From Polyangium mundeleinium (GTDB lineage: Bacteria > Myxococcota_A > Polyangia > Polyangiales > Polyangiaceae): a stretch of 64,000 bases of DNA. The notes beneath the pieces are model-generated. The model had not been told where the DNA came from, made no database searches, and was given only the letters and a program-made list of their open reading frames with translations. Below are positions 1 to 19,010 of the stretch, piece by piece. A program made the position numbers and the translations under genes. Numbering within the stretch: the first letter of the stretch is position 1; the number at the start of each line of letters is the position of its first letter. Location: contig NZ_JAQNDO010000001.1 of assembly GCF_028369105.1 (NCBI RefSeq), positions 5,114,501 to 5,178,500 of the forward strand, given 5' to 3'.

Positions 1-2223
1 CCCGCAGAGGAGCAGCGCTTCGCCGAGGGCGAGCCCCGCCGCCACGAGCGGGCTCAAAAAGCCCGCCGCGCAGAGCGGAATGACGGCCGCATTGTAGACG
101 ACGGAGACGAGGAGGCTTTGCCTGACCGTGGCCCGCAAGGCGCGGGCGAGGTCGACGAGCCAAGCGATGGTCTCCAGGCGGTCGTCGCAGAGCACGAGGG
201 GCGCCGGCACGGCCACGGGCAACGCGCCGGGCGCGACGGCGAGCGAGACGTCCGCCGGGCCCCTGTTCGCGCGGTCCTCCTGGCCGTCGCTGATGTGGAG
301 GACACGCGCGCCGGCTTGCTGAAGGTCACGGACGTGCAGGGCTTTTTCCGCCGGGCCGAGGCCGCCGCGCGCCGGCACGCCGAGCCGATGCGCGAGCGCG
401 AGCGTCGCGTCCGGGCCGTCGCCGCTCAGGAGCCGGCAGCCGAGCCCCCGCTGGAAGAGCGCACGGAACGCCTTCTCCGAGCCGAGCCGCGGCGGATCCC
501 AGAGCTCGAACCAGGCCTCGACGGTGCCGTTGCGACGGACGCAGACGAGGCTCGCGCCCTCTCGCGCGTCCGGAGGCAGAGGATCTCCCGGGCGCGCGGC
601 CGAGACCTCCACGAGCGCGCCGCGCGACCGGCCCACCACGCCGTCGGGGCGCACGTCGGCCGCCTCGTCGAGCGCGCCGGGACGCACGCCGGCCACGGCG
701 AGGTGATGCGCGATGGCGCGGCCCGCGCGGTGCGTCGCGCTCGCTTCGAGCGCGGCCACGTCCTCGAGGATCGAGATGTCCGGGAACTCGCGCCACGAAA
801 GGCGCGTGACCCGCGGCGTGCCGAGGGTCACCGTGCCCGTCTTGTCGAAGCAGGCGACGGTGGCCGTGGCGAGCGCTTCGAGGGCCGCCGGATCCTTGAC
901 GACCACGCCCGCCGCGCGCGCCCGCAGGACGGCGATGGTCCGCGCGGCCGGGAGCGCGATCACGAAGGCCGCGGGCGAGGCGCCGATGAGCACGGCGATC
1001 GCGGTGAGATACCCGTCCGGATGGAACGGGCCACGGCCGAGCAGCGCGTGCACGACGAACGCGAAGCCGGCGAACGAGACGGACGCGACCGACAGGGCGA
1101 GCGACGCGACGTGCGCGAACGACTTTCCCGTGTGCTGCCGCGCGTCCCGCTCGATCCGCAGGGCGGCGCGATGCACCTCGGCGTCGGCCGCGGCGGCGAG
1201 CTCGGAGCAGGGCGCCCGCGCCACGCGCCCTGTGACCTCGCCGGAGAGCAGCCGCGCGCCGGTCTCGACGATCTGCCCGCCGGCCCGATCCACGGCGCGG
1301 CCATCCGGCAGGGACACGCGCGCCGCGCTCTCGAGGACGATGTCCACGGGCGTGATGTCGCCTTCGCCGAGGCGCACGCGGTCGCCGGGCGCGAGCATGG
1401 CGCACGCGACGCGCTCGTCGACGCCGCTGCCGCCCACGCGGCGCACGCGGGCCTCGCGGGCCAGCGCGGCGCGCGTGACGCTCCGGTAGGCGCGCGTGAG
1501 CAAGGCCGTGTGCGCGTAGAGCCCGAGGATCGAGCAGCCGAGGATCGCGCCGGAGGCCTCGAACGCGGCGAGCGAGAGGCCGTCGAGCGAAAGCCCGAGC
1601 CGCGTGAGCTTCTCCAGGATGGTTCCGGCGCGGCTCGGATCGAACACCATCGCGACGACGCCCAGGGCGAGCGCGAGCGTGGCGCAGGAAAGCGTCACGA
1701 CCTCGGTGCCGAGGACGCCGCGGCGCGCGAGGGCGCGGGCGCGGTGGAGGAGGGGCGGGCCGGCCACGGCGAAGAGCAACAGCGTGAAGCCGAGCTCGAC
1801 CCAGGCGATCTCCCGCTCGGGGGTGCGCGCGGGCCGCCACGAGGCGAGGGCGACGAGGTTGCCGAGGAGCGCGACGACGAGGCCGAACCGTCCCGCGTCG
1901 AGCCGCGCTCGTTCGCTCGGCGGTGCGCCCACGGCGGCCGTGAACGTGAAGCCGCGCTGGGCCATGGCGGAGGCGATCTCGCGCTCGCTCGTGACCCGCA
2001 CGTCGTAGATGGCCTGGGCGATCTCGCCGAAGAACCCGACGGACCCCGCGCGGACGCCGGGCAGGGTGCGCAAGGCTTGCTCCGCGCGGCGGGCGCAGCT
2101 CCGGCACGAGAGGCCTTCGACATGGAAGGTCGCCTCGTGCTCGAACGCGGGTCGCCCGCGGCCGCCCTCGCGCCCAGGGCGGGCGTCTCCATCGACCAGC
2201 GCAGTGGGGAAAGATTGATGCAT
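1..2223 (-). CDS. Degenerate heavy-metal (P1B-type) P-type ATPase, 3' end cut by window edge
   Basis: The frame is open for 741 codons from ATG at 2223 to the window edge. An N-terminal heavy-metal-associated domain has a CxxC site (GLSCRSCARRAEQAL), followed by hydrophobic helices, the phosphorylation motif DKTGT (D460) and two C-terminal helices, which is the order of a P1B metal-transporting ATPase. Several signature sites are altered. The metal-binding CPC of helix 6 reads ASPAAF (about 416). The ATP-binding HP dipeptide reads ATHRAG. The hinge GDGxND reads SDGQED (D646). No TGES dephosphorylation loop is recognisable after the PGDRV segment. The fold and the acceptor aspartate therefore remain, but ordinary Cu/Ag/Zn pumping is doubtful. 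It may be a divergent pump, a regulator or a metal sensor. The ATG start is preferred because it leaves a short leader before the metal domain. Confidence 0.8.
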   Translation of the reverse strand, partial: MHQSFPTALVDGDARPGREGGRGRPAFEHEATFHVEGLSCRSCARRAEQALRTLPGVRAGSVGFFGEIAQAIYDVRVTSEREIASAMAQRGFTFTAAVGAPPSERARLDAGRFGLVVALLGNLVALASWRPARTPEREIAWVELGFTLLLFAVAGPPLLHRARALARRGVLGTEVVTLSCATLALALGVVAMVFDPSRAGTILEKLTRLGLSLDGLSLAAFEASGAILGCSILGLYAHTALLTRAYRSVTRAALAREARVRRVGGSGVDERVACAMLAPGDRVRLGEGDITPVDIVLESAARVSLPDGRAVDRAGGQIVETGARLLSGEVTGRVARAPCSELAAAADAEVHRAALRIERDARQHTGKSFAHVASLALSVASVSFAGFAFVVHALLGRGPFHPDGYLTAIAVLIGASPAAFVIALPAARTIAVLRARAAGVVVKDPAALEALATATVACFDKTGTVTLGTPRVTRLSWREFPDISILEDVAALEASATHRAGRAIAHHLAVAGVRPGALDEAADVRPDGVVGRSRGALVEVSAARPGDPLPPDAREGASLVCVRRNGTVEAWFELWDPPRLGSEKAFRALFQRGLGCRLLSGDGPDATLALAHRLGVPARGGLGPAEKALHVRDLQQAGARVLHISDGQEDRANRGPADVSLAVAPGALPVAVPAPLVLCDDRLETIAWLVDLARALRATVRQSLLVSVVYNAAVIPLCAAGFLSPLVAAGLALGEALLLCG

Positions 2224-2420
2224 CGTCGCCGCGACCGAAGTTGCTGGGTGCGCTAGCGAACTTCGGGCCGCGGGCGATCACGACCAGCTCGGGCAAGTCG
2301 TGCACGCGGACGAGGCGGTAACACCTCGTGTTTGCGGAAAATCGCGGGGGAAAGGGAGAACGTGGAGGGCCGCCGGGACGATCGGCGGCGGGGGCGGGGG
2401 GATCCGACCTTGGCGGATCG

Positions 2421-3065
2421 TTACTTCTTGTAGATCTGGGCGGCGGCGAGGCCGGCGCCACGCGTGGCCTTCACGATGACCTTGCCGGGGCCGCCGATGG
2501 GCAGCGGGTTCTTGAAGCAACCGTTGGCCTTGCCGCCGAGGATGGCCGTGGCGCCCTGGCCGTTGCTCTGGGCGAGGACCTGGGGCGGCAGGGGGGCGGC
2601 GTGCAGGACGAGCTGCACGTCGAGCTGCTGGACGCCGACGCCGGAGGCGATGACCGAGTAGCACTTGCCGGCCTCGATGTTGATCGCCTGCTCGAGGACC
2701 TGGCCCTCCTGGAACTGCGCGGCGAAGGGCGCGCCGTCGGCCTGCATGCCGGGCGCCTCGGAGGCGGCGAGGCCCTGGAGCGCGAGCGTGGCGACCTGGG
2801 CGGCGGCGGGGGCGATCGGCGTGGCCGGGCTGCCGCCCGAGGCGCCCGTCGTCGGGGCGGGCGTCACCGTGGTGGGGGCCGGGGTGGGCGTCACCGCGGT
2901 GGGGGCGGGCTGCTGGTACTGGTTCGGGTTGTACGCGCCCGGCTGCTGCCCGTTCGCGTACTGGTTCTGCTGCGACGGGTCGTTCGGGTCCGGGGTGTCG
3001 CTGCCGCCGCAGCCGACGGCGAAGAGGCCCAGCAGGGCCACGGGGACGATCATCGAGAGGCGCAT
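2421..3065 (-). CDS. Secreted lipoprotein of unknown function
   Basis: A 214-residue protein with a lipoprotein signal peptide (MRLSMIVPVALLGLFAVGC, Cys19 as lipidation site). A low-complexity stretch rich in Asn, Gln, Pro and Thr follows to about residue 90, then a compact C-terminal domain with two cysteines (GKCYSV and NGCFKN) that could form a disulfide. An AAGGAG ribosome site lies 7 nt before the ATG, so this start is preferred over a longer upstream frame. The linker composition is that of a surface-anchored myxobacterial lipoprotein. I recognise no enzymatic motif and assign no function. Just past the stop, a 6-bp hairpin (2401-2419) could help end the transcript. Confidence 0.8.
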   Translation of the reverse strand: MRLSMIVPVALLGLFAVGCGGSDTPDPNDPSQQNQYANGQQPGAYNPNQYQQPAPTAVTPTPAPTTVTPAPTTGASGGSPATPIAPAAAQVATLALQGLAASEAPGMQADGAPFAAQFQEGQVLEQAINIEAGKCYSVIASGVGVQQLDVQLVLHAAPLPPQVLAQSNGQGATAILGGKANGCFKNPLPIGGPGKVIVKATRGAGLAAAQIYKK

Positions 3066-3077
3066 GGGTTGGCTCCT

Positions 3078-3103
3078 TGGAAATCTATGCTGGAAATCTA
3101 TGC
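3078..3103. repeat. 13-bp exact tandem duplication in a 5' leader
   Basis: The 13-mer tggaaatctatgc occurs twice back to back, 13 bp upstream of the lipoprotein start at 3065. Read on the gene strand it places two copies of GCATAGAT just before the ribosome site. It may duplicate a -10-like element or simply be a recent slippage event. Confidence 0.85.
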
Positions 3104-3298
3104 TGCCGTGGTTCGGGAGCGCGGCGGCGTCGCCGCACCTCGGAAGACGCTCGGGGCCGACGCTACGGCTCACCGATGCTTGGGCTGTAAGACGGGCCCA
3201 GGCGTCCGCTACTTACACCGGATTCGTGCTGTGAGGGGAGGGGGTTTGGGGCCACCGTTCGTCGCAGAACCGTGCTTGGGGCCAGGCCCCGGGGGTTT

Positions 3299-3333
3299 GG
3301 GGGCGTCGCTCGGCTTGTCCGAGCGTAGCCCCC
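3299..3333 (-). terminator. GC-rich hairpin downstream of the lipoprotein gene at 3350
   Basis: A long inverted repeat with stem GGGGGC, a 3x3 internal loop, GCTCGG, and a 5-nt loop, sitting 17 bp past the stop of the minus-strand gene 3350-4423. There is no T-run, so it is either a GC-type terminator or an mRNA 3' stabiliser. The wider stretch 3235-3340 holds further G-rich and C-rich inverted segments. Confidence 0.5.
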
Positions 3334-3349
3334 GAGCGTGGAGCGTGTT

Positions 3350-4423
3350 TCACTTGGGCTGCTCGATGCAGCAGCCCGTGATGCAGTAGAAGCCGGCGCC
3401 GCAGGGGTCCTGGCCGGGCAGGCCGCAGGGCTGTAGGCCGTCGGGGCACTGCTCGGGCGGCGGGGTGCCGGCGTCCGTGCCGCCCATGCCGCCGCCGCCG
3501 TCGACGCCCGCGTCCGGGGGCGGCGGGAAGCACTCGGGCGGCAGGGTGTCCTTGCCGATGCAGAGCTCGCACGTGCCGCATTCGTTGTAGCAGGCGCCCT
3601 TCACCTGCGTGCACGGGGCGCAGCTCTTCGGATCGTCGAGGTGCTCGAGATCGCAGGAGAAGCTGCCCAGGCCGTTCTCGGTGCCGAGCCAAACCGGGCC
3701 GTGCTTTTGTCCGTCCTTGTAGATGACGCAGCAGCCGAAGCAATCGCAGCCGTTCGGCGTGAGCTCCGGACAGACCTGCTTGCAGGTCTCCGGCTGGTTG
3801 TTGAGCAACTCGTCGCAGCTCAGGTTCGTGCCAGGCGTGTTCGCATTCGCGTTATAGGTGCACTTGTTGCCGTTCCACCACTCCGGGTAATAGTCGGGTG
3901 CCGTGGAGAGCGGGTCGCACTGGTGGTTCCAGTAGCACTCGTCATTGCCCGTTCCGGAGTTCGAGTCCCAGAAGCAGTCCGTGATGCACGCCGCGCCGGC
4001 GCCGCCGGGGATGCTGACGCCGAGGCCGGTCTCGCTGTTGTCGCAGGGGCCGAGGCATTCCGGATCCTGCCAGTCGATGAGGCCGTCGCCGTCGTTGTCG
4101 ATCGTGTCGCCACACTGGTAGACCTGGTTCACGCACGCGGCCATGACGAACCCACCGTCCGGGCCCACCCAGCCATCCGGGCCCGCGTCCGGGATGTTGC
4201 CCGTGCCGCCCGCGCCGCCCGTGCTGCCGCCGATGCCGCCCGCGCCACCCGTGCTTCCGCCGATGCCGCCCGCGCCGCCGATGCCGCCGCTCGCGCCGGA
4301 GCCGCTCGCGCCAGAGCCACTGGTTTGGACCTGGGGCTCATCACTACAACCCACGGCAATCACGGATGCGACGAGGGGGCTCGCGAGGAGCAAGACGATT
4401 GCGCTCTTGGAAAAGGACGGCAT
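3350..4423 (-). CDS. Cys-rich lipoprotein with Gly-rich stalk
   Basis: A 357-residue predicted lipoprotein. The signal peptide MPSFSKSAIVLLLASPLV runs to a lipobox ending VGCSDE. A repetitive Gly/Ala/Ser stalk with GGAGGIGGSTGG-type repeats follows, then a domain with more than 20 cysteines spaced as in disulfide-rich extracellular modules. That domain contains an Asp-rich Ca-binding-like loop (DTIDNDGDGLIDWQDPEC), and a Pro/Asp-rich tail carries more cysteines. An AAGGAG site precedes the ATG, so this start is chosen over a frame that continues upstream. This stalk-plus-Cys-domain layout is common among myxobacterial surface proteins, but its role is unknown to me. The two adjacent lipoprotein genes share strand and may be co-expressed. 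Confidence 0.8.
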   Translation of the reverse strand: MPSFSKSAIVLLLASPLVASVIAVGCSDEPQVQTSGSGASGSGASGGIGGAGGIGGSTGGAGGIGGSTGGAGGTGNIPDAGPDGWVGPDGGFVMAACVNQVYQCGDTIDNDGDGLIDWQDPECLGPCDNSETGLGVSIPGGAGAACITDCFWDSNSGTGNDECYWNHQCDPLSTAPDYYPEWWNGNKCTYNANANTPGTNLSCDELLNNQPETCKQVCPELTPNGCDCFGCCVIYKDGQKHGPVWLGTENGLGSFSCDLEHLDDPKSCAPCTQVKGACYNECGTCELCIGKDTLPPECFPPPPDAGVDGGGGMGGTDAGTPPPEQCPDGLQPCGLPGQDPCGAGFYCITGCCIEQPK

Positions 4424-4646
4424 GTAAAGTCTCCTTGGCGGAAGCTCGGCTCCAGGGCAGTTTCCCCGGGCCGTGTCCACGGACGAACGTCGTGCAGCCG
4501 GAATGCACGAGGCGCGCCAGCCCCTCGCCACGAGGAAGATCGCGGAAACACCGCACTTCATCAGCGACGGCGGACGTGGGTGGTTGCACGCGTGACCAGG
4601 CCTTGTCGTCAGTCGGGATTCGTCCGACGACGGATCACGCAGGATC

Positions 4647-5432
4647 TCAGACGAGGTGCGAGAGGACGGCCCAGGTGATGTGGACCGTCCCGTGCGCGAG
4701 CATCGCCGATTCCAGGCTTCGGCGGAAATAGAGCCAACCGAAGATGACGCCCGCGAATGCATTCAAGACGAGGGTGCGGGCGATCATGGGGCCCGAAAGC
4801 GGGATGCCCATCGCGATCACGGCGGGCAGGTGGCCCGCCGCGAACACGAGGGCGGCGAGCACGACGGCCGTCCACATCACGCCCCTGGTAGGGCTTCCCG
4901 GCGCTTTGCGGATCTTTCCGATGGCCCAGGCGAGGAACGTCGCGAGGCCCCAGCGCGTCAGGAGCTCTTCGTTCATGCCGCCATAAAGGACGGCCGCGAT
5001 CGTGGCCCACGCGGGTTGTTTCTGGAGAATGCGGAGGTCCTTCCCACCGGTTTCGGCCAGGGTGGGGCGCAGGAAATGGTCGAGGGCCAGGACCACGAGC
5101 GCGGCAAGGATCCCCAGGCCAACCGCGATCCGCAGTTGGCTTCGGAACCGCGGCTCAGGTTGCGGCTCGCCCCCGGCCCATGCAGCGATGTGAGATCGCA
5201 GGTGCAACGAGGGCGCGAGGCGGACGCCCGCCGCGACGGCCAAGCCCAGGAGGAGAAGGGGCTGAATCTGCGACGCAATCACGAGCACGGGCAGCGACGG
5301 CAAGGCCGCGTCCGTATGCTCCACGATCTGCCGTATCTGTGGAATCGCAATGGGCAGCAAGCTGAGGTTGCCCACGACGCCCATGCCGAAGAGCACGCCA
5401 AACTTCCGCCACAAACGCGGTTGCGCTGCCAT
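4647..5432 (-). CDS. CPBP-family intramembrane metalloprotease
   Basis: A 261-residue polytopic protein with about seven hydrophobic segments. The C-terminal half has the three CPBP (CAAX protease/Abi) motifs: a paired glutamate in MNEELLTRWG, a histidine in FAAGHLPA, and a second histidine region LAHGTVH. In this family these residues form the glutamyl/metal site of an Rce1-like membrane protease. Substrates in bacteria are mostly unknown; some members give bacteriocin self-immunity. The gene stands alone between a lipoprotein gene and the LRR-like gene, so context does not identify the substrate. Confidence 0.85.
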   Translation of the reverse strand: MAAQPRLWRKFGVLFGMGVVGNLSLLPIAIPQIRQIVEHTDAALPSLPVLVIASQIQPLLLLGLAVAAGVRLAPSLHLRSHIAAWAGGEPQPEPRFRSQLRIAVGLGILAALVVLALDHFLRPTLAETGGKDLRILQKQPAWATIAAVLYGGMNEELLTRWGLATFLAWAIGKIRKAPGSPTRGVMWTAVVLAALVFAAGHLPAVIAMGIPLSGPMIARTLVLNAFAGVIFGWLYFRRSLESAMLAHGTVHITWAVLSHLV

Positions 5433-5458
5433 CTCGCCCTTTTGGGGCGAGCAGGCGT

Positions 5459-6058
5459 TCAGCGCAAGACTTCAACCCCACGCGCCGCGAGGCGATCGAG
5501 GACCGCGGGGTCGTCGACCGAGCCGAGGTTCACCTCGAGATGCTCGAGTTTGGGGAGCATTTCCAGGCTCGCCGCGTGCGTCCAATCGCCGGTCAAGGTG
5601 AGATGCGTGAGCTTGGCCAATCCTTCGAGGGGGCGGAGATCACGGAGGTCGTCGAAAAAGCCATGGCCGTCGAGGTCAAGCGTCTCGAGGGCCTCGAGCG
5701 CGCCGATGCCTACAAGCGAGCGGAGCGAATAGGTGTCGTCCTCGCCGCCGGTATAGACGCCAGCGCCGCTTTCCATCATCATGTAGATCTCGTTCCCGCC
5801 ATCGAAATCGAGCCGATCGAGCCGCGCAACCTTCTTGCGATCAAGCTTGATCGAATGCAGCCGAGCCATGGCCGCCCGGAGCCGAACCATATCGTCGTCG
5901 CCCTCAATCCCTTCGAGCTTGGCCTCGACCCGCTCCGAACTCACAGCCTCGGCCTCCATCAACGCACCAAGCACAGCGATGTGCAGCCCAGGATCCGGGA
6001 AAACAATGCGGGTCTCCTCCGTCGCGGTCTTTTTCGTCGTGGTCTTTTTCGTGCTCAT
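5459..6058 (-). CDS. Leucine-rich-repeat-like protein
   Basis: A 199-residue soluble protein. After a Lys/Thr-rich N-terminus (MSTKKTTTKKTATEE) comes a helical segment of about 60 residues. The C-terminal half then has repeating leucine patterns (LETLDLDGHGF, LTHLTLTGDW, LEHLEVNLG) typical of irregular LRR or LRR-like solenoids used for protein binding. The ATG at 6058 is chosen because the frame upstream becomes compositionally unlike protein and runs through the structured repeat at 6100-6202. No enzymatic motif was seen. Confidence 0.75.
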   Translation of the reverse strand: MSTKKTTTKKTATEETRIVFPDPGLHIAVLGALMEAEAVSSERVEAKLEGIEGDDDMVRLRAAMARLHSIKLDRKKVARLDRLDFDGGNEIYMMMESGAGVYTGGEDDTYSLRSLVGIGALEALETLDLDGHGFFDDLRDLRPLEGLAKLTHLTLTGDWTHAASLEMLPKLEHLEVNLGSVDDPAVLDRLAARGVEVLR

Positions 6059-6099
6059 TCCAGTGTTCTTTCTTGTTGGGGTTCGTTGGGGCCGCCGCG

Positions 6100-6202
6100 C
6101 CGGGGCGCTGCCCCGGACCCCGCGGGGGCTGTCCGCCCCTCGACCCGGACCAGGCACGGCCTGGACCGGTGATGGAAGAACTGCGCTCCGCGCAGTTCTT
6201 CC
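6100..6202 (-). repeat. Structured intergenic repeat, copy A (reverse orientation)
   Basis: A four-hairpin element of 103 nt. Read on the minus strand: hairpin 1 is a 13-bp perfect stem with 3-nt loop (6174-6186/6190-6202); hairpin 2 is ccaggc/gcctgg (6150-6164); then a conserved core with GGGGCGGACAGCCCC; hairpin 4 is ccggggc/gccccgg with 3-nt loop (6100-6116). The same layout recurs at 6319-6422 and 53015-53118. Copies A and B face each other across 116 bp with no gene. The element lies in the 5' leader of the LRR-like gene. Confidence 0.8.
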
Positions 6203-6318
6203 AACGGGCCGGTGGCAAGACCATGGAGGTCGTCGCATGCAGCGGCACGTTGCCGGTTGCACCGTCAGCCCTGCTGTCTTGGTTGGCAGGGGCGTCGCCG
6301 GTCTTGATTGCGGCTGTT

Positions 6319-6422
6319 CGATGAACTGCGCGGAGCGCAGTTCATCGACCCCGAGTCCAGCGCTTGCGCTGGTCCGGGTCCAGGGGCGGACAGCCCCGGT
6401 GGGGTCTGGGGCAAAGCCCCAG
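6319..6422 (+). repeat. Structured intergenic repeat, copy B
   Basis: A 104-nt element. Hairpin 1 is a 13-bp stem with GGA loop (6319-6331/6335-6347). Hairpin 2 is 7 bp with a 2-nt loop (6357-6363/6366-6372). The core CAGGGGCGGACAGCCCC follows, and hairpin 4 is ctggggc/gccccag with AAA loop (6406-6422). It ends 30 bp past the stop of the minus-strand kinase gene at 6453, so that gene's mRNA would carry its complement as a 3' structure. With copy A it fills the 394-bp gap 6059-6452, in which I see no gene. Confidence 0.85.
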
Positions 6423-6452
6423 CGCAGCGGCCTCAAAACGAGAGACCCACGC

Positions 6453-9400
6453 TCACCGGCCAGCGCGATGCGCGCGCCAGGCTTCCAGCGGCGTCGGGAA
6501 CCAGCGCAGGTGCTGGAAGGCCTCCGGGATGTCGGGCTCGTTCTGCGGATCTGGCGGCCCCTCGACGGCGGCGCTGGCGAGGATGGCCCGTGCTTCGTCG
6601 AGGTAGGTGGCGAGCGCGCTTTCTGGCTCGCTCGTGCGCATCGATCGATATTCGAGCTCGCCCCCGCGGTACGAAAGGTCCTTCAAACGCAGCGCGGGCC
6701 GCGGACGCCCGGCCACGTGCGTCCAGCGCCCGGTCGCGGCGTCACACCGGTACATCGGGAGCAGCTTCCACCCGTCGTGGGCGATCATGTGAATCGCGGC
6801 GACGATGTAGAGGAACACGGTCTCTGTCATGAAGGCATTGAAATGGACGCGGACCCAGCCGAGCTGGAGCACGCCGCAGCCGGCTTCCACCGCTTCGGCG
6901 AAGGCCGCGGAGGGCTCGGGGTCGATGCCGAGGATGAGGTGACCGTACGGGCCTGCCGAGGGGCCTCCGCCTCGCGCCTGGATGCCGAAGAGATCGTTCA
7001 GCAGGGCGACGACGAAGTTCCAGTGGAGGAATTGATCACGGCCGTGGCGAATCACGAGCGACACGATGGACAATCGTTCGTGCTCTGGAGGGCCGAGCAC
7101 CCAGATCTTTTCGTTCGTTCGGAACGACGCGAGGGCGCGCTTGATGAAGTCGTCCTCGCGGGCGCGGATCGTGTCTGTGCCGATCGCCGCTTTGAGCTGG
7201 AAGACGAGGCCTGCGCGGATGGAGTCGAGCAGGGCCGGCGGGCCTGCCTCCTTGCGGCGCGCGACGAGCGCGCGCTTGGCGACGAGCACGCCGGGCGTGC
7301 CCAGGCCGCCGATGCATTCGTGCGGCGAAAGGAAGACGGCGTCCTTCGACGCGAGGGCGCCGGAGCCCTCGGGGTTCATTCGAATGTCGAGCGAAGGCCC
7401 GGCGGTGGTGGAATCCCAAAAGGAGAGCGCCCCGTGCCGGTGCAGGAGGGTCGTGATGGCGACGTCGTCCGCGACGATGCCCGTCACCTGGGACGCCAGG
7501 GAAAAACTCCCGATCTTGAGCGGGCGGTTCGCGTGTCGAACGAGCGCCGCTTCGAGCGCGTGGAGATCGATGCGACCTTCGGCGTCCGCGTCGATCGTCA
7601 CGACGTCGGCGATGGAGGCGCGCCACGGGAGCTCGTTCGAAGGGGCCTCGTGGGGCCCGAGGAACACGACGGGGCGCTCGTTCTCCGGGATCCGCTCGCG
7701 CAGGTGATATCGTTCGTCGAGCTCCGGCGATAACGCGAGCCCGAGCGCCCGGACCATCTCCTCGACCGCCGCTGTCGCGTCCGAGCCGCAAAAAAGGACG
7801 ACGTCGTCGCTCCCGCCGCCCACGCTCTCGTGGAGGAGGTCCCCCGCCTCCTCGCATAACCGCGACGTCTGCGCGCCGGTGCCCGAGGAGAGCGGCATCA
7901 CCTCGCTTCGCAGGAATTCTTCGAGGAAGCTCAAGGAGCGGCCCGAGGCCGTATCGTCCGCCTGGACCAGGCGCCGTGGTCCGAAGGGCCCGTGAAGGAC
8001 CACGTCGTCGCCGAGGATCGAGGCGCGCACTTTTCCGAGGAGCGCCTCCTTGTCGGAAGATGCGTCGTCCGGGGACGCATGCAGGCGGGTCGTGTTCGCC
8101 GCTTCGTGCAGGGCGTGGGGAATGTCGAGCAGCGTCCCGAGGCCGTCGACGAATCCGCGCAGGGTCTGCTCGACGAGGTCTTCTGTGCCGGCCCGCGTCG
8201 TGCTGGCCAGGGTCATGCGCATCAGCGTCTTCGTGCCCATCGCGCGATCGCCGTGCGTGCCGACGACGAGCGCCTGCGCCGCGCGCCGGACGATGCCGGC
8301 GTCGGTCTGCCGGAGGGCGTCGATGAGGTCGCGATTGATGGCCTCGACCAGCTCGAAGGCCATCGCCGGGCTCGACGCGAAGAGGCGCGCGAGGGGCTCG
8401 GGCGCGAGCTCGAGGAGCACCACGTTCTCCCGTGCAGTGCACGTGACCCGCTGCGGGCCGTGGTCGAGCAGCGCTTCCATGCCCATGGTCTTGCCGGGCC
8501 CGAGGACGGCGAGGTGCATGTGCCGGTGGCCTGCGCGGACGGTGATTTCGACGGTGCCACGCGCGAGGAGGAAGGCCGAGCCCCGGCTCGCGCCTTCGGC
8601 AAAGATCATGCGCCCGCGCGGCACCTCGCGCTCGACGAGGACGCCCGCGATGACGGCCAATCGTTCGTCGCTGAACGATTCGAAAAAGGGCAGGCTCCGG
8701 AGGGAGGACGCGATGGGCGGCGTGAGGGGGTGGCCCTCGCCGAGGTCCGAGGCCGACGTGCTTGCGGCGGGAGGCGCCGGCCCCATCAATTCGCGGGTGA
8801 CGCCGCGCAGCTCGCTGCAAAGGTGGAGCGAGAGCCGGCGCAGGACCTTCAGCGCGGCGGGGTTGTGCACACGCCTGAGGTGCTCGAAATCGGCGATCTC
8901 CAGCGTATACCCCGACGCGCGCCGGACCGTGGTGACGGTGGCCGCGCGGAGCATGGGCTGGTTCAAGGCGTGCTCCCCGAGCACGCCCCCCGGGCCGCTC
9001 TCGCCGACGAAGATACGATCGTCCCCGGGCGTCCGGATCGAGACCGCGAGCAGGCCGTCCTCGACGAGGTAAAGCTGGTCGGCCGGCGCGCCTTGTGTGC
9101 AGAGGACCTCGCCGGGCTCGGCGTGGAAGGGCCGCATCCGGGCGGCGAGGTCGCGGCGCTCGTCGGCGTCGAGATCCGAAAAGAGCGCCGTGGCGCCGAG
9201 CAACGCGCCGATCGTGCTCGGGTCCCTCGCCGTCCGCGGGGTGATGCCGGAGTCTGCTTTGGCTTCCCCCTCGGGAAGCGAGGCGCGCTGGATCCCGCGG
9301 CGTACGGCGCTCGCGAGCTGCTCCCATGCCTGGCCCCACGCCTCGGCGAGCTCGTCGTCCATGCGGCCGCCCTCGGTGAGATCGAGCTCCGCGCGGAGCG

Positions 9401-10643
9401 CCTCGCCAAAGGAATCGACGTGCGCCTCGCGGACGCCGTAAAGCACGTGCCGCGCGCCGAGCTCTTCGAGCATCGCGTAGAGCCCGTGGGGATCACGCAG
9501 GCAGGCGACGCTCGCGGTCAGCGCGGTGACGAGCTTGCGCCCCTGGCCCGTGAGATCGTGCGGGAACAAATGGCGCATCTCGGGGTGCCGCGCGAACAAG
9601 CGCTCATAGAATCGCTGCGGGAAGCTCGATCGCGAGACCGCCCGCTTGAACATCATCCGCACGAGCTCGGCCTGCCGCTCCGAGGGCGAGGCCGCGGCCT
9701 CGGGGAGCAGGCCGAGCGCGCGCATCGTCGCGACCACGCCTTCGAGCGCGGCGGCGAGGGCGTCCGCCGAGGCGAAGCGTTTGGCCGGGTCCTTTTGCAC
9801 CGCGCGGTCGACGCTCGCGGAGAGCTCGAAGGGGATGTCGGGCCGGAGCGAGGCGATGCTCGGCAGGGGCTCTTTGAGGATCGCGTCGACGAGCTGCATC
9901 AGAGGCCGCTTGGGCCCATAGGGCGGGATGCCGGCGAGCAGCTCCCACAGGACGAGGCCGAGCGCATAGATGTCGCTCGCGGCGGTCGCGGGCGCGCCTT
10001 TCCACAGTTCGGGCGCGAGGTAGCGGGGCGTGCCGAGAATGTCGCCTTTCCGCGTCACGTCGGCGGGCAGGCCTCCATTCGCCACGAAGCGCGCGATGCT
10101 CTCGGGGCCCGCCTCTTCGAGGAACGCGGGCCGCGCCGGCACCTTGGCGACGCCGAAATCAATGAGCTTGCCGGCGCCCGTGCGGGTGCGCATGACATTC
10201 GCCGGCTTGAGGTCGCGGTGCAGGACGGAGGCGTGATGGGCCGCCGCGAGCCCCCGCGCGACGTCGACGCCGAGCGCGAGGACCTCCTGCCACTCGAGCG
10301 TGCCGACGAGCGTATCGACGCTCTGCCCGGCGACGAGCTCGTACACGATGTAAGGCTGCCCGAGCGTTTCCCCGCTGCGGTAGACGGCGACGACGTTCGG
10401 ATGCTCGATCCGCCCGAGCGCGAGGGCTTCGAGGCGGAAGCGCTCGCGGTCGCGCTCCGCCGGATAAGCACTGCGGATCATTTTGATCGCGACGTGGCGA
10501 TCGATCGTGAGATCGAGGGCGCGCCAAACCTCGCCCATCGCGCCTTCGCCGAGCCGCTCGAGGAGGCGATAGCCGTCGAACTCCGTGAGGGACCGGAGGG
10601 CGGTGGAAGCCGGCGGCGGGGGGGAGCGGCCCGATTCGAACAC
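6453..10643 (-). CDS. Ser/Thr kinase-globin-(cNMP-binding)x2-PLP-fold fusion
   Basis: A 1396-residue cytosolic-looking multidomain protein, GTG start. Residues 22-300 are a Hanks-type kinase with intact motifs (GEGAMGEVW, VAIK K54, HRDLKP, DFG D162). Residues about 326-455 match a bacterial globin (RFYERLFARHPEMRHLF, then LGARHVLYGV with proximal His399). Two cyclic-nucleotide-binding domains follow (about 483-600 and 655-780); both keep the Glu and Arg of the phosphate-binding cassette (GEHALNQPMLRAATV; MEALLDHGPQRVTCTA). Residues about 905-1310 resemble a class V aminotransferase fold, but the expected SPHK site reads SPHECIGGLGTPGV, so the PLP-binding lysine is Glu1109. Inference: haem ligand and cNMP inputs control a kinase, while the C-terminal domain is a catalytically dead PLP fold used for binding. 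The GTG start leaves the glycine loop intact. Confidence 0.85.
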   Translation of the reverse strand: MFESGRSPPPPASTALRSLTEFDGYRLLERLGEGAMGEVWRALDLTIDRHVAIKMIRSAYPAERDRERFRLEALALGRIEHPNVVAVYRSGETLGQPYIVYELVAGQSVDTLVGTLEWQEVLALGVDVARGLAAAHHASVLHRDLKPANVMRTRTGAGKLIDFGVAKVPARPAFLEEAGPESIARFVANGGLPADVTRKGDILGTPRYLAPELWKGAPATAASDIYALGLVLWELLAGIPPYGPKRPLMQLVDAILKEPLPSIASLRPDIPFELSASVDRAVQKDPAKRFASADALAAALEGVVATMRALGLLPEAAASPSERQAELVRMMFKRAVSRSSFPQRFYERLFARHPEMRHLFPHDLTGQGRKLVTALTASVACLRDPHGLYAMLEELGARHVLYGVREAHVDSFGEALRAELDLTEGGRMDDELAEAWGQAWEQLASAVRRGIQRASLPEGEAKADSGITPRTARDPSTIGALLGATALFSDLDADERRDLAARMRPFHAEPGEVLCTQGAPADQLYLVEDGLLAVSIRTPGDDRIFVGESGPGGVLGEHALNQPMLRAATVTTVRRASGYTLEIADFEHLRRVHNPAALKVLRRLSLHLCSELRGVTRELMGPAPPAASTSASDLGEGHPLTPPIASSLRSLPFFESFSDERLAVIAGVLVEREVPRGRMIFAEGASRGSAFLLARGTVEITVRAGHRHMHLAVLGPGKTMGMEALLDHGPQRVTCTARENVVLLELAPEPLARLFASSPAMAFELVEAINRDLIDALRQTDAGIVRRAAQALVVGTHGDRAMGTKTLMRMTLASTTRAGTEDLVEQTLRGFVDGLGTLLDIPHALHEAANTTRLHASPDDASSDKEALLGKVRASILGDDVVLHGPFGPRRLVQADDTASGRSLSFLEEFLRSEVMPLSSGTGAQTSRLCEEAGDLLHESVGGGSDDVVLFCGSDATAAVEEMVRALGLALSPELDERYHLRERIPENERPVVFLGPHEAPSNELPWRASIADVVTIDADAEGRIDLHALEAALVRHANRPLKIGSFSLASQVTGIVADDVAITTLLHRHGALSFWDSTTAGPSLDIRMNPEGSGALASKDAVFLSPHECIGGLGTPGVLVAKRALVARRKEAGPPALLDSIRAGLVFQLKAAIGTDTIRAREDDFIKRALASFRTNEKIWVLGPPEHERLSIVSLVIRHGRDQFLHWNFVVALLNDLFGIQARGGGPSAGPYGHLILGIDPEPSAAFAEAVEAGCGVLQLGWVRVHFNAFMTETVFLYIVAAIHMIAHDGWKLLPMYRCDAATGRWTHVAGRPRPALRLKDLSYRGGELEYRSMRTSEPESALATYLDEARAILASAAVEGPPDPQNEPDIPEAFQHLRWFPTPLEAWRAHRAGR

Positions 10644-10705
10644 GCCGCGATGGTAGGCGAGCGTGCGTGGGCGGCAAGGCGAAACAGCGGCGAACCGCGT
10701 CGAAA

Positions 10706-11047
10706 TCAGGCCTTGGCGGGCGCCTCACCCTGCGTGCGCGGCTCCGGCTCGATTGCGCCTGTTTCCGGGTTCACGTCCTCGATGGGCTTGCTTTGGCACG
10801 AGAATCGGTCTGCCGCGCCTCGGACGAATAGGGTGACCTTGCGCCCGGCCCATTCTTTCGGAAGTCGAGCCGGAGGCTGGGTGGTCGTGAGGCAGGGCTC
10901 AGGGGGCCCCTGCGCACACCTTCGCGTTCGCGCGCAGGGGCGACGTGGCCGAGCAGGTTTCTGGCGCGCGAGGGTCTTGGGACGTTCGAGGGGTCGCGGG
11001 AGACGGTGACGCGTGGGTGTTCGAACGTTCGATCCGCCGCGCGTCAC
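10706..11047 (-). pseudogene. Possible truncated ORF running out of the 43-bp repeat array
   Basis: The last 60 or so codons read like ordinary protein (KEWAGRKVTLFVRGAADRF and an acidic tail ending TQGEAPAKA), while everything upstream is Arg/Pro-rich translation of the minisatellite. No ATG, GTG or TTG lies just before the plausible part. Its third codon positions are less GC-rich than in neighbouring genes. It could be the 3' remnant of a gene whose 5' part was replaced by the repeat array, or a chance frame. No family is recognised. Confidence 0.25.
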
Positions 11048-11263
11048 GGTGACGCGTCGGTGATCGGACGTTTGGAGAGCCGCTGGAGACGGTGACGCGC
11101 GGGGGATCGGTCGTTCGAGCGGGCGCTGGTGAGCGTGACGCGAGGGTGTTCGAAGCTTCGGAGACCCGGAGGAGAACGTGACGCGTGGGTGTTCGAACGT
11201 TCGAACAGGGGCGCGTCACCGTGACGCGTGGGTGTCGGGACGTTTGGAGACGCAGGAGCAGCG
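10963..11263. repeat. 43-bp minisatellite, seven degenerate units
   Basis: Seven contiguous units start at 10963, 11006, 11049, 11092, 11135, 11178 and 11221, exactly 43 bp apart. Six begin GTGACGCG; the first is more diverged. Units at 11006 and 11178 share GTGTTCGAACGTTCGA and end in CGCGTCAC, so each can fold back on itself. The period is not a multiple of three and units differ at many positions, so this is not a coding repeat, and there are no alternating spacers. It occupies the gap 10644-11410 upstream of the TIR gene; the rest of that gap holds only the doubtful frame at 10706. Confidence 0.9.
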
Positions 11264-11410
11264 GTGGATGCCGGGGGCGGGCGCGAATCGGAAGCGGCGC
11301 GCGGCGGCGGGAGCCGCCCTGTGCGACCTCGGGGGGTCGGGGGCGGCGACGGTGAGCGAGCGTCCACGAGGTGGTGGATTCAAAGCCCACGACCGTGCGA
11401 CACTCCGCCC

Positions 11411-11836
11411 GTGGCAAAAGTCTTCCTGTCGCACGCCCACGTGGACAAGCCAGCGGTCCGTCGGATTGTCGATGCCTTGCGGGAAGCGGGGCACGAGCCG
11501 TGGATCGACGAGCAAGAGATCCTCGTGGGGGAGTCGATTCCCGGCGCCATCGAGCGTGGGCTCGAGACCACGGACTTCGTCCTCGTTTGCCTTTCCCGCG
11601 CCGCGATAGCAAGCGGGTGGGTCAGGAGCGAATTGGATGGCTCGGTGATGAAGCCGTTCCGTTCGAAGATGACCCGCGTGCTTCCGATCCGTCTCGAAGA
11701 CGTCGCGCCGCCGACGATCATCGCGCATGCCAAGTATGTCGACCTGTTCCCCGACGACGATGCGTTCCAGCGGGGGATGGAGGCTCTGCTGCGCTCCATC
11801 GAAGGGTATACGGCGCGGGCCCCCGCCCCCCCCTGA
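11411..11836 (+). CDS. TIR-domain protein (N-terminal part of a probable TIR-TM-DUF1566 protein)
   Basis: A 141-residue TIR domain of the bacterial TIR_2 type: AKVFLSHAHVDKPAVRRIV, then WIDEQEILVGESI, VLVCLS, and SGWVRSELD. Glu74 in the last motif aligns with the NAD-hydrolysing glutamate of SARM1 (WVHKE), so NADase activity is plausible. Start is GTG 11411, which places the first beta strand at residue 3; no clear ribosome site is seen. The frame stops at TGA 11834-11836 directly after a run of eight C. A -1 shift in that run (reading CCC CCC CTG) continues into the membrane and DUF1566 segment 11833-12666. Alone, this product would be a soluble TIR. Bacterial TIR proteins act in anti-phage defence or NAD signalling; which applies here is unknown. 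Confidence 0.8.
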   Translation: MAKVFLSHAHVDKPAVRRIVDALREAGHEPWIDEQEILVGESIPGAIERGLETTDFVLVCLSRAAIASGWVRSELDGSVMKPFRSKMTRVLPIRLEDVAPPTIIAHAKYVDLFPDDDAFQRGMEALLRSIEGYTARAPAPP

Positions 11837-12666
11837 TCGGCTCTCCGGGGGCCGGTGCCGCCCCGGAGAGCCCAAGCCGGACGCCCTACGTCCCGGTGAG
11901 CCCGAGCGCGCCGCCCTATGTCCCGGTGAGCCCGAGCGCGCCGCCCTATGTCCCGACGTATCCCGGGCCGCCACCCATTTACCTACCGCCCCCGAAGCCC
12001 AAAGGTCCCTCCCTTTGGTTCGTGCCGGTCGGCCTCTTCGCCGGATGCGGGATCTTCGCGCTCGCCGGGAGCACCTGTCTCATCATGATGGCGGCCCGTA
12101 CGCAGGGGTCGGACCCGGAGGAGAAGCTGAAAGCCGCGGTCGAGGAGTTCAAGGACGAGAAAGGGGAGGCTCGCAGCAACCGTCCGGATGGCCGCTCTTT
12201 CCTTGCCGACGCAGCGCCGCAGGGAGAGCCGCTCGACAGCAAATCCGCGCAGAAGAGAGGGAGCGAGGATGCGGGAGCCGACGGGGCTTCGAGCCATGCA
12301 GCGATTGACGAAATGGCTGAGGACCGCGATCCGACCTGGTTCTCTGGCACCTTGCTCTGGACGCGAGTGCCCCTCAAGGAGCCGCGCACGGGCAAACCAG
12401 CCAAATACGCCACGCTCGAGCTTGCGGAGGCCGCCTGCGCGCAGCGTCCGACGGGCTGGCGGTTGCCCAGCGTGCGGGAATTCAGGTGGTTCACGAAAGA
12501 CGGTCGTATCAACGAGATGTTATTCCCTGAGTATCCGACGGGTGTATTCTGGGCGACGCCAGACGATCGCGTGTCCATCTCTGCCTCCGGGGTATTCGAC
12601 TCGTACGACGGTCCCGCTTCGCCGATGGTGCTGTGCGTGAAGGAGCACAGTCTGGAGGAGCCTTGA
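11833..12666 (+). CDS. Pro-rich/TM/DUF1566 (Lcl-like) segment in -1 frame of the TIR gene
   Basis: A 277-codon open stretch with no credible start of its own: the first in-frame GTGs lie inside the repeat and lack ribosome sites. It begins with a Pro/Ser/Tyr linker (YVPVSPSAPP repeats), then one transmembrane segment (FVPVGLFAGCGIFALAGS), an acidic/Lys linker, and a C-terminal domain with LLWTR, WRLPSVREFRWF and FWATPDD, matching the DUF1566/Lcl pattern found in extracytoplasmic bacterial proteins. The simplest reading is that TIR and this segment are one protein of about 418 residues with a cytosolic TIR, one membrane span and an outer DUF1566 sensor. Expression would need -1 frameshifting or a C8-to-C9 (or C6) length change. 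A sequencing error or real inactivation is also possible. Confidence 0.6.
   Translation: MIGSPGAGAAPESPSRTPYVPVSPSAPPYVPVSPSAPPYVPTYPGPPPIYLPPPKPKGPSLWFVPVGLFAGCGIFALAGSTCLIMMAARTQGSDPEEKLKAAVEEFKDEKGEARSNRPDGRSFLADAAPQGEPLDSKSAQKRGSEDAGADGASSHAAIDEMAEDRDPTWFSGTLLWTRVPLKEPRTGKPAKYATLELAEAACAQRPTGWRLPSVREFRWFTKDGRINEMLFPEYPTGVFWATPDDRVSISASGVFDSYDGPASPMVLCVKEHSLEEP
11881..11955 (+). repeat. 30-bp coding tandem repeat, 2.5 units
   Basis: The unit spans 11881-11910 and 11911-11940, with a half unit to 11955. It encodes the ten-residue motif YVPVSPSAPP in the linker before the membrane span. Near-identity of the units suggests recent slippage. Confidence 0.85.

Positions 12667-15386: not shown

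Positions 15387-19010
<3,624 letters not shown>

Follow-up and report, generated by a model that had tools for sequence, protein, structure and literature searches.

Globin-coupled sensors are proteins in which ligation of the globin heme controls an output domain (PMC12805357, in the part available), and the accessible portion of a phylogenomic census of globins names two chimeric classes, the flavohemoglobins and the globin-coupled sensors (PMC1457004). One putative member, HGbRL, carries a QGRK stretch that holds Lys52(E10), a helix-E lysine that, according to the consulted section of its description, can bind heme (PMC4476040). The available parts of further reports describe cyclic-nucleotide (cNMP) domains on three phosphatases in a myxobacterial phosphatase survey (PMC2887360) and, for the cysteine desulfurase SufS, a dimer (PMC11408855) with a β-latch, a glycine-rich loop and hairpin that reaches into the active site of the partner (PMC10011822). 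Here we describe a gene in a window of 64,000 nucleotides (the whole stretch analyzed, positions 5,114,501 to 5,178,500 of contig NZ_JAQNDO010000001.1, assembly GCF_028369105.1) from the 13.25 Mb genome of the soil bacterium Polyangium mundeleinium. A single uninterrupted open reading frame (ORF) encodes a Ser/Thr kinase, a globin, two cyclic-nucleotide-binding domains (CNBDs) and a domain of the cysteine desulfurase fold. We consider it probable that the product is a heme- and cyclic-nucleotide-responsive Ser/Thr kinase of Polyangium, in which a kinase-globin protein was joined to a CNBD-CNBD-desulfurase whose catalysis was lost and which was kept as a non-enzymatic module.

Pfam places the domains in the order Pkinase, Globin, cNMP_binding in two stretches (E 8e-28) and Aminotran_5 (E 1e-9), with the values for the first two in Table 1. 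The full-length protein occurs in five of the six Polyangium genomes searched, and the four orthologs (from Polyangium fumosum DSM 14668 and Polyangium sp. 15x6, y55x31 and 6x1) are 79-93% identical and carry no internal stop. The domain order in one polypeptide, as read by an original prediction made from this DNA, is thereby borne out. No kinase-globin-CNBD-desulfurase fusion was found in the 177 other genomes of the order Polyangiales. Such absences are less firm than presences because few candidates were scored per genome, namely six in the Polyangium ortholog search, seven in the order-wide search, six in the CNBD-desulfurase search and eight in the class-wide kinase/globin search. Order-wide, the desulfurase-like domain was matched in 56 of 183 genomes, 51 of them outside Polyangium. 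Outside the genus two matches lay in frames longer than 1000 amino acids (aa), one a CNBD-CNBD-desulfurase (G110) and the other a protein for which Pfam gives no second domain (G126); for four fragmentary matches (frames of 158-319 aa) no verdict on fusion was possible.

Table 1 Features of the fusion gene, with positions counted in the window.
Feature	Residues	Positions	Strand	Basis or detail
Whole gene, kinase-globin-CNBD-CNBD-pseudodesulfurase	1396 aa	6453..10643	-	GTG start at 10643
Ser/Thr protein kinase domain, PknB-like	25-296	9756..10571	-	Pfam PF00069, E 5e-38; motifs
F-type globin	322-458 (Pfam match 344-446)	9270..9680	-	PF00042, E 1e-12
Proximal His (F8)	399	9447..9449	-	Alignment
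CNBD1, canonical phosphate-binding cassette	478-610	8814..9212	-	Alignment to PKA RI-alpha
CNBD2, non-canonical cassette Met722/Gln731	645-775	8319..8711	-	Alignment to solved CNBDs
Linker	776-860	8064..8318	-	Least constrained stretch, mean dN/dS 0.61; mostly low pLDDT
Pseudo-cysteine-desulfurase domain	861-1396	6456..8063	-	Pfam, alignment, model, fold match
Glu at the pyridoxal phosphate (PLP) lysine position	1109	7317..7319	-	E,E,E,E,R in five orthologs
SufS crossing loop/hairpin element, deleted		7263..7268	-	Alignment; SufS role from PMC10011822, as far as available
Ser at the catalytic cysteine position	1229	6957..6959	-	S,S,S,gap,S in five orthologs
C-terminal extension	1280-1339	6627..6806	-	Most conserved pseudo-domain stretch within the fusions

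The kinase is of the Hanks type, by its family match and by the intact motifs VAIK, HRDLKPAN, DFG and APE (VAIK, HRD and DFG start at residues 51, 142 and 162), and is predicted to transfer phosphate; its closest solved structures are mycobacterial PknB and PknA (E about 3e-35). The globin scores 48.9 bits against PF00042, for which the cut-off is 22. Tyr346, Phe360, Gln367 and His399 are invariant in all 28 aligned kinase-linked globins, which come from the five fusions, 21 kinase-globin proteins and two proteins with kinase, leucine-rich repeats and globin. We take these residues to be helix positions B10, CD1, E7 and F8. The domain appears flavohemoglobin-like, has a complete set of heme-pocket residues and is predicted to bind heme. 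Both the Ser/Thr kinase and the globin with proximal His399 had been claimed before; the former agrees with family match and motifs, the latter, on sequence evidence, with the Pfam match and the invariant pocket. Among 317 genomes of the class, at least 26 contain an end-to-end match to a query across the kinase/globin border: 5 Polyangium genomes and 21 others. A Pfam scan of 18 of these 21 (L091, L218 and L225 were left out) showed an alpha/beta hydrolase next in 16 and nothing after the globin in two.

Other globin arrangements were seen along the way. At five loci (L088, L092, L094, L102 and L220) a stand-alone globin ORF lies beside the kinase-globin-hydrolase gene, convergent with it in four and just upstream on the same strand in L220. 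Another kinase-globin arrangement, one ORF with kinase, leucine-rich repeats and a C-terminal globin, is found at L096:2-3394 and L101:1061-4600, and L093:3390-6122 and L099:823-3135 encode globin-PAS-MCP chemoreceptor-like proteins with a PF00042 globin. At G117:C1:832204-833238, G023:C2:2156026-2157066 and G182:C787:75-1112, two globin matches separated by some 650 bases, in frames of equal length, may be tandem globins.

Intact Glu/Arg contacts had been claimed for both CNBDs, which holds for one domain only. CNBD1 has Glu557 and Arg566, kept in all five orthologs, with an Ala after the Arg that is presumably the cAMP-type residue. In CNBD2 of the window protein the Glu site is occupied by Met722 and the Arg site by Gln731, with Arg732 one residue late relative to the cassette Arg; Met and Gln stand at these sites in all five. 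The CNBD region models well and matches PKG and PKA regulatory domains (Z up to 18.9). Seventeen class III cyclase matches in the same genome make cyclic nucleotides plausible.

The C-terminal domain is a SufS-type cysteine desulfurase by fold. Its predicted model (predicted local distance difference test, pLDDT, 89.1; predicted template modeling score, pTM, 0.89) matches SufS with a Foldseek E of 4.7e-22 and a Z of about 30 over about 365 aligned residues, and its sequence matches the same SufS-type enzymes as the intact relative L006, more weakly than L006 does. The class V aminotransferase-like fold of the original prediction stands as a class V PLP fold (Aminotran_5), although specifically it is that of a SufS-type cysteine desulfurase. 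L006 aligns with SufS over its full length and shares with it the Lys, the second CSCAG-loop Cys, the GTP threonine and the crossing loop. Compared with 30 intact relatives, all five fusions have lost the His (1000), Asn (1052), PLP Lys (1109) and Cys (1229). The column of residue 1000 aligns with SufS H121/H123, a position that we take to be the PLP-stacking residue. All five also carry a deletion of some 23-27 residues that removes the GGGTV loop and the hairpin. Thr1135 is lost in four; all five retain Asp1077, His1108 and Arg1265, and four retain Thr957.

This alignment holds 35 of 37 sequences (L023 and L103 left out), 12 duplicates having been removed before and with a filter set to drop any row under E 1e-10 or of fewer than 400 aa. 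It has 225 columns that are near-invariant in the 30 intact relatives, of which 124 are kept and 33 lost in all five fusions. The lost ones include 1000, 1052, 1109 and 1229 and another 13 that lie within the deleted loop and hairpin or border on them. Key positions are lost in all five at four of nine columns against 16 of 203 others (Fisher p 0.005), the nine having been picked after viewing the alignment, on the basis of what is known of SufS. Where the window protein has Glu1109, all 30 aligned stand-alone relatives read SPHK. Among the best 80 of 558 relatives, at named loci, Lys is present in 74 by pattern and in L136 and L181 on inspection, and the four Polyangium loci in that set read Glu, Glu, Glu and Arg. 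Replacement of the catalytic lysine by Glu1109 had been recognized in the original prediction and is confirmed here as one of several active-site losses, but Glu is not general in the orthologs: four have it and one has Arg (L005, the same as L112, of Polyangium sp. 6x1). A nearby Lys that might serve PLP instead was looked for and none was gained near the site; apart from columns 865 and 871, no column has Lys in every fusion and in under half of the 30 relatives. No second match to the desulfurase domain was found in the P. mundeleinium genome, where the fusion itself is the sole match.

CNBD-CNBD-desulfurases with Lys and Cys in place still exist, in Nannocystis (L111), another Polyangiales genome (L198) and three proteobacterial metagenome-assembled genomes (MAGs; L113, L118 and L122), the first CNBD being shortened in L118 and L122. 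In the best 80 of 558 relatives, CNBDs precede an intact enzyme at 4 of the 76 named loci outside Polyangium, as tested by a match to the window protein's own CNBDs at E 1e-6. We built a tree of 65 rows from the 5 fusions, the 30 intact aligned sequences, 5 CNBD-CNBD enzymes and 25 sequences hand-picked from the other 72 named loci. The fusions and the five intact CNBD-CNBD enzymes split from the 55 stand-alone enzymes with a branch support of 99/94. The fusion stem branch is long (0.76), and the midpoint-rooted tree does not order the fusions relative to the CNBD enzymes. On the simplest reading, a CNBD-CNBD-desulfurase fused with a kinase-globin protein and became dead, probably in that order.

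The proteins at L111/L201, L113, L118, L122 and L198 may be cyclic-nucleotide-regulated desulfurases. Neither for these nor for a kinase-globin protein was a description found in the open-license literature searched (titles and abstract openings). In the Rhodospirillales MAG of L122 a further tandem-CNBD protein (L122:4025-5026) directly follows the CNBD-desulfurase gene. Desulfurases in records titled Klebsiella pneumoniae and Bifidobacterium breve MAGs (L115 and L187) may stem from mislabeled bins.

To what extent the dead domain is still constrained can be read from the ratio of nonsynonymous to synonymous substitution rates (dN/dS, Nei-Gojobori). Over ten pairs it averages 0.16 for the kinase, 0.22 for the globin, 0.33 for CNBD1, 0.42 for CNBD2, 0.61 for the linker and 0.30 for the pseudo-domain. 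For the latter, four fusion pairs range from 0.17 to 0.39 and five intact enzyme pairs from 0.03 to 0.26, so constraint is somewhat relaxed but present. Open frames in five species and a dN/dS below 1 show that the dead PLP fold is kept under purifying selection. The retained module of the original prediction stands in this respect, and the ligand or partner role given to it there would be its putative function.

What is conserved within the domain has changed. In the fusions, identity is 0.74 in the active-site windows (1100-1159 and 1220-1249), 0.91 in the extension and 0.79 on average over the domain; the windows were picked after viewing the profile. In the 30 intact relatives the active-site windows are at 0.84 and the extension at 0.55. 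The active site also exceeds the extension in eight of eight small intact sets, with a bootstrap interval that is clear of zero in six and includes it in L006/L008 and L019/L022. Extension identity in these eight sets is 0.53-0.88, at an overall identity of 0.63-0.86, and in each lies below the value of the fusions. The rank correlation of the fusion and intact conservation profiles is -0.47 (p 0.06). In most rows the match to SufS runs to model residue 430-440 (near residues 1289-1299) and does not cover most of the extension. Conservation has thus moved from the active site to the C-terminal extension, which favors reuse of the pseudo-domain over decay.

Reuse could take the form of a ligand sensor, in which non-covalently bound PLP, an amino acid or a related metabolite would be a third input to the kinase. 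We regard this as unlikely. The fold is intact in the predicted model and the four pocket residues named above persist (Asp1077, His1108 and Arg1265 throughout, Thr957 in four of five), but the pocket His, Asn and Lys and the site-closing loop from the neighboring chain are gone in every fusion and Thr1135 in four, and conservation in the active-site windows falls below the average of the domain. We think it more doubtful still that the pseudo-domain is a passenger that has been decaying since the fusion and has no present function. Against it stand a frame open to its end in five species, a dN/dS well under 1 and the 60-residue extension, which is more identical in the fusions than in each of the eight intact sets; the long stem branch, a constraint weaker than on the kinase, the loss of several active-site residues and a dN/dS that in three of four fusion pairs exceeds all five intact pairs are what such decay would leave. 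An enzyme with an unusual, lysine-free mechanism is very improbable, as only some pocket residues remain to speak for it while all five are missing the Lys, the Cys, a His, an Asn and the crossing loop, and no replacement Lys lies near the site. Finally, long spurious ORFs are common in the GC-rich DNA here, but an assembly or gene-calling artifact that fuses separate genes is hardly conceivable, because colinear full-length frames without internal stop in four other genomes, from separate records, rule out a chance or assembly join.

Returning to the responsive kinase with a retained non-enzymatic module, a more specific proposal is possible but tentative, and we hold it a little less likely than its opposite: a globin kinase may have captured a type II cysteine desulfurase together with its CNBDs and turned it into a dimerizing or partner-binding hub, where a heme gas signal and cAMP are read together. 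The working that we infer, from heme and cAMP binding and the identity of the gas to dimerization and kinase control, would be as follows. The globin would bind heme through His399 and report O2, NO, CO or the heme redox state. CNBD1 would bind a cyclic nucleotide, probably cAMP, while CNBD2 may be structural or bind another ligand. The pseudo-desulfurase would join two chains, or bind a partner through its C-terminal extension, and changes driven by the ligands would alter kinase-kinase contact and hence activity. As SufS is dimeric, a scaffold role would come naturally to the pseudo-desulfurase.

Several observations weigh against this picture. The predicted globin model, which is helical, is of low confidence (block means about 50-72, from a nine-row alignment) and the fold-search rows, which CNBD matches fill, include no globin, so that the globin assignment rests on sequence. 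CNBD2 is without its Glu/Arg pair, and both CNBD2 and the pseudo-domain (0.42 and 0.30) are less constrained than the kinase (0.16). The deleted loop and hairpin reach into the neighboring subunit in SufS, and their loss could equally mean that the domain does not dimerize. Lastly, in the Polyangium genome G001 (99% complete) the fusion gene was not found although both conserved flanks are present, also by a globin search with 28 of 31 candidates scored; the genus can therefore do without it.

Between the conserved flanks of G001 lies a different kinase (L228, G001:C4:697000-716000), with 32% identity in the kinase part only. At the other four Polyangium loci fetched the neighbors vary, and a conserved operon partner was rejected. 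The left-side genes (window 118-4762) have matches in all four. Downstream of the fusion and on the same strand, a DUF6892 ORF (5459-6436, minus strand) adjoins it and a CAAX-protease-like ORF (4647-5432, minus strand) follows; each has a good match in three loci, and in L104 the former is matched over 111 residues only, outside the DUF part, and the latter over 31 residues only. For the right-side genes tested (11228 onward), the fetched stretches contain matches at L106 alone. A search of 5400-12000 for a sigma-70-like promoter gave none, which says little because only 0.3 were expected by chance. A TIR-domain ORF (11228-11836, plus strand) diverges from the fusion gene, and a subtilase with FG-GAP repeats is encoded at 15387-19010 (minus strand).

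Compared with known systems, the pseudo-domain shares its fold, at the Z and length given above, with SufS/CsdB of E. coli and B. subtilis, but has lost the Lys, the Cys, a His, an Asn and the loop/hairpin, is fused to kinase, globin and CNBDs and has a C-terminal extension of about 100 residues. The top match by Z is an encapsulin cargo desulfurase of M. smegmatis (8kg1, 32.5), with SufS rows within 1. Encapsulin cargo desulfurases are likewise cysteine desulfurases with an added N-terminal region; in contrast, the cyanobacterial cargo enzyme is active and has a disordered targeting domain as its N-terminus, whereas the Polyangium domain is dead. Membership of encapsulin family 2B was rejected (score 64 bits, cut-off 400, with the best-matching stretch in CNBD2).

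The closest solved globin is that of Methylacidiphilum HGbRL, a globin joined to a Roadblock/LC7 domain (3wfw, E 2.5e-13), which has the same QGRK stretch; there, however, the globin is N-terminal and the output is not a kinase. Control of an output domain by heme ligation, as proposed here, is shared with globin-coupled sensors such as the histidine kinase AfGcHK, but in Polyangium the globin is internal, belongs to PF00042 and not PF11563, and the kinase is a Ser/Thr kinase. Membership of the sensor (S) family was rejected, as the globin (344-446) follows the kinase (25-296) and no PF11563 match was seen at E 0.1. PKG and the PKA regulatory subunits, the best structural matches of the CNBDs, also have these in tandem (in PKG with a Ser/Thr kinase), although in the Polyangium protein a globin separates them from an N-terminal, PknB-like kinase, and CNBD2 is non-canonical. 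The kinase-globin-alpha/beta-hydrolase proteins of Polyangia have the same kinase-globin order and pocket residues, but no CNBD or desulfurase in the 18 scanned.

The original prediction knew of no described protein with this order; none was found in the literature searched, but partial architectures have precedents. Overall, the ingredients are each known and their combination, a heme-sensor kinase with a repurposed enzyme domain, is not described in that literature. It also draws attention to the kinase-linked globins of Polyangia, with which one could test directly whether O2, NO or CO controls a Ser/Thr kinase. Its likely history is traceable, as intact CNBD-CNBD-desulfurases and separate kinase-globin proteins both still exist, which makes it a good case of how an enzyme becomes a regulatory domain, with the intact relatives as controls.

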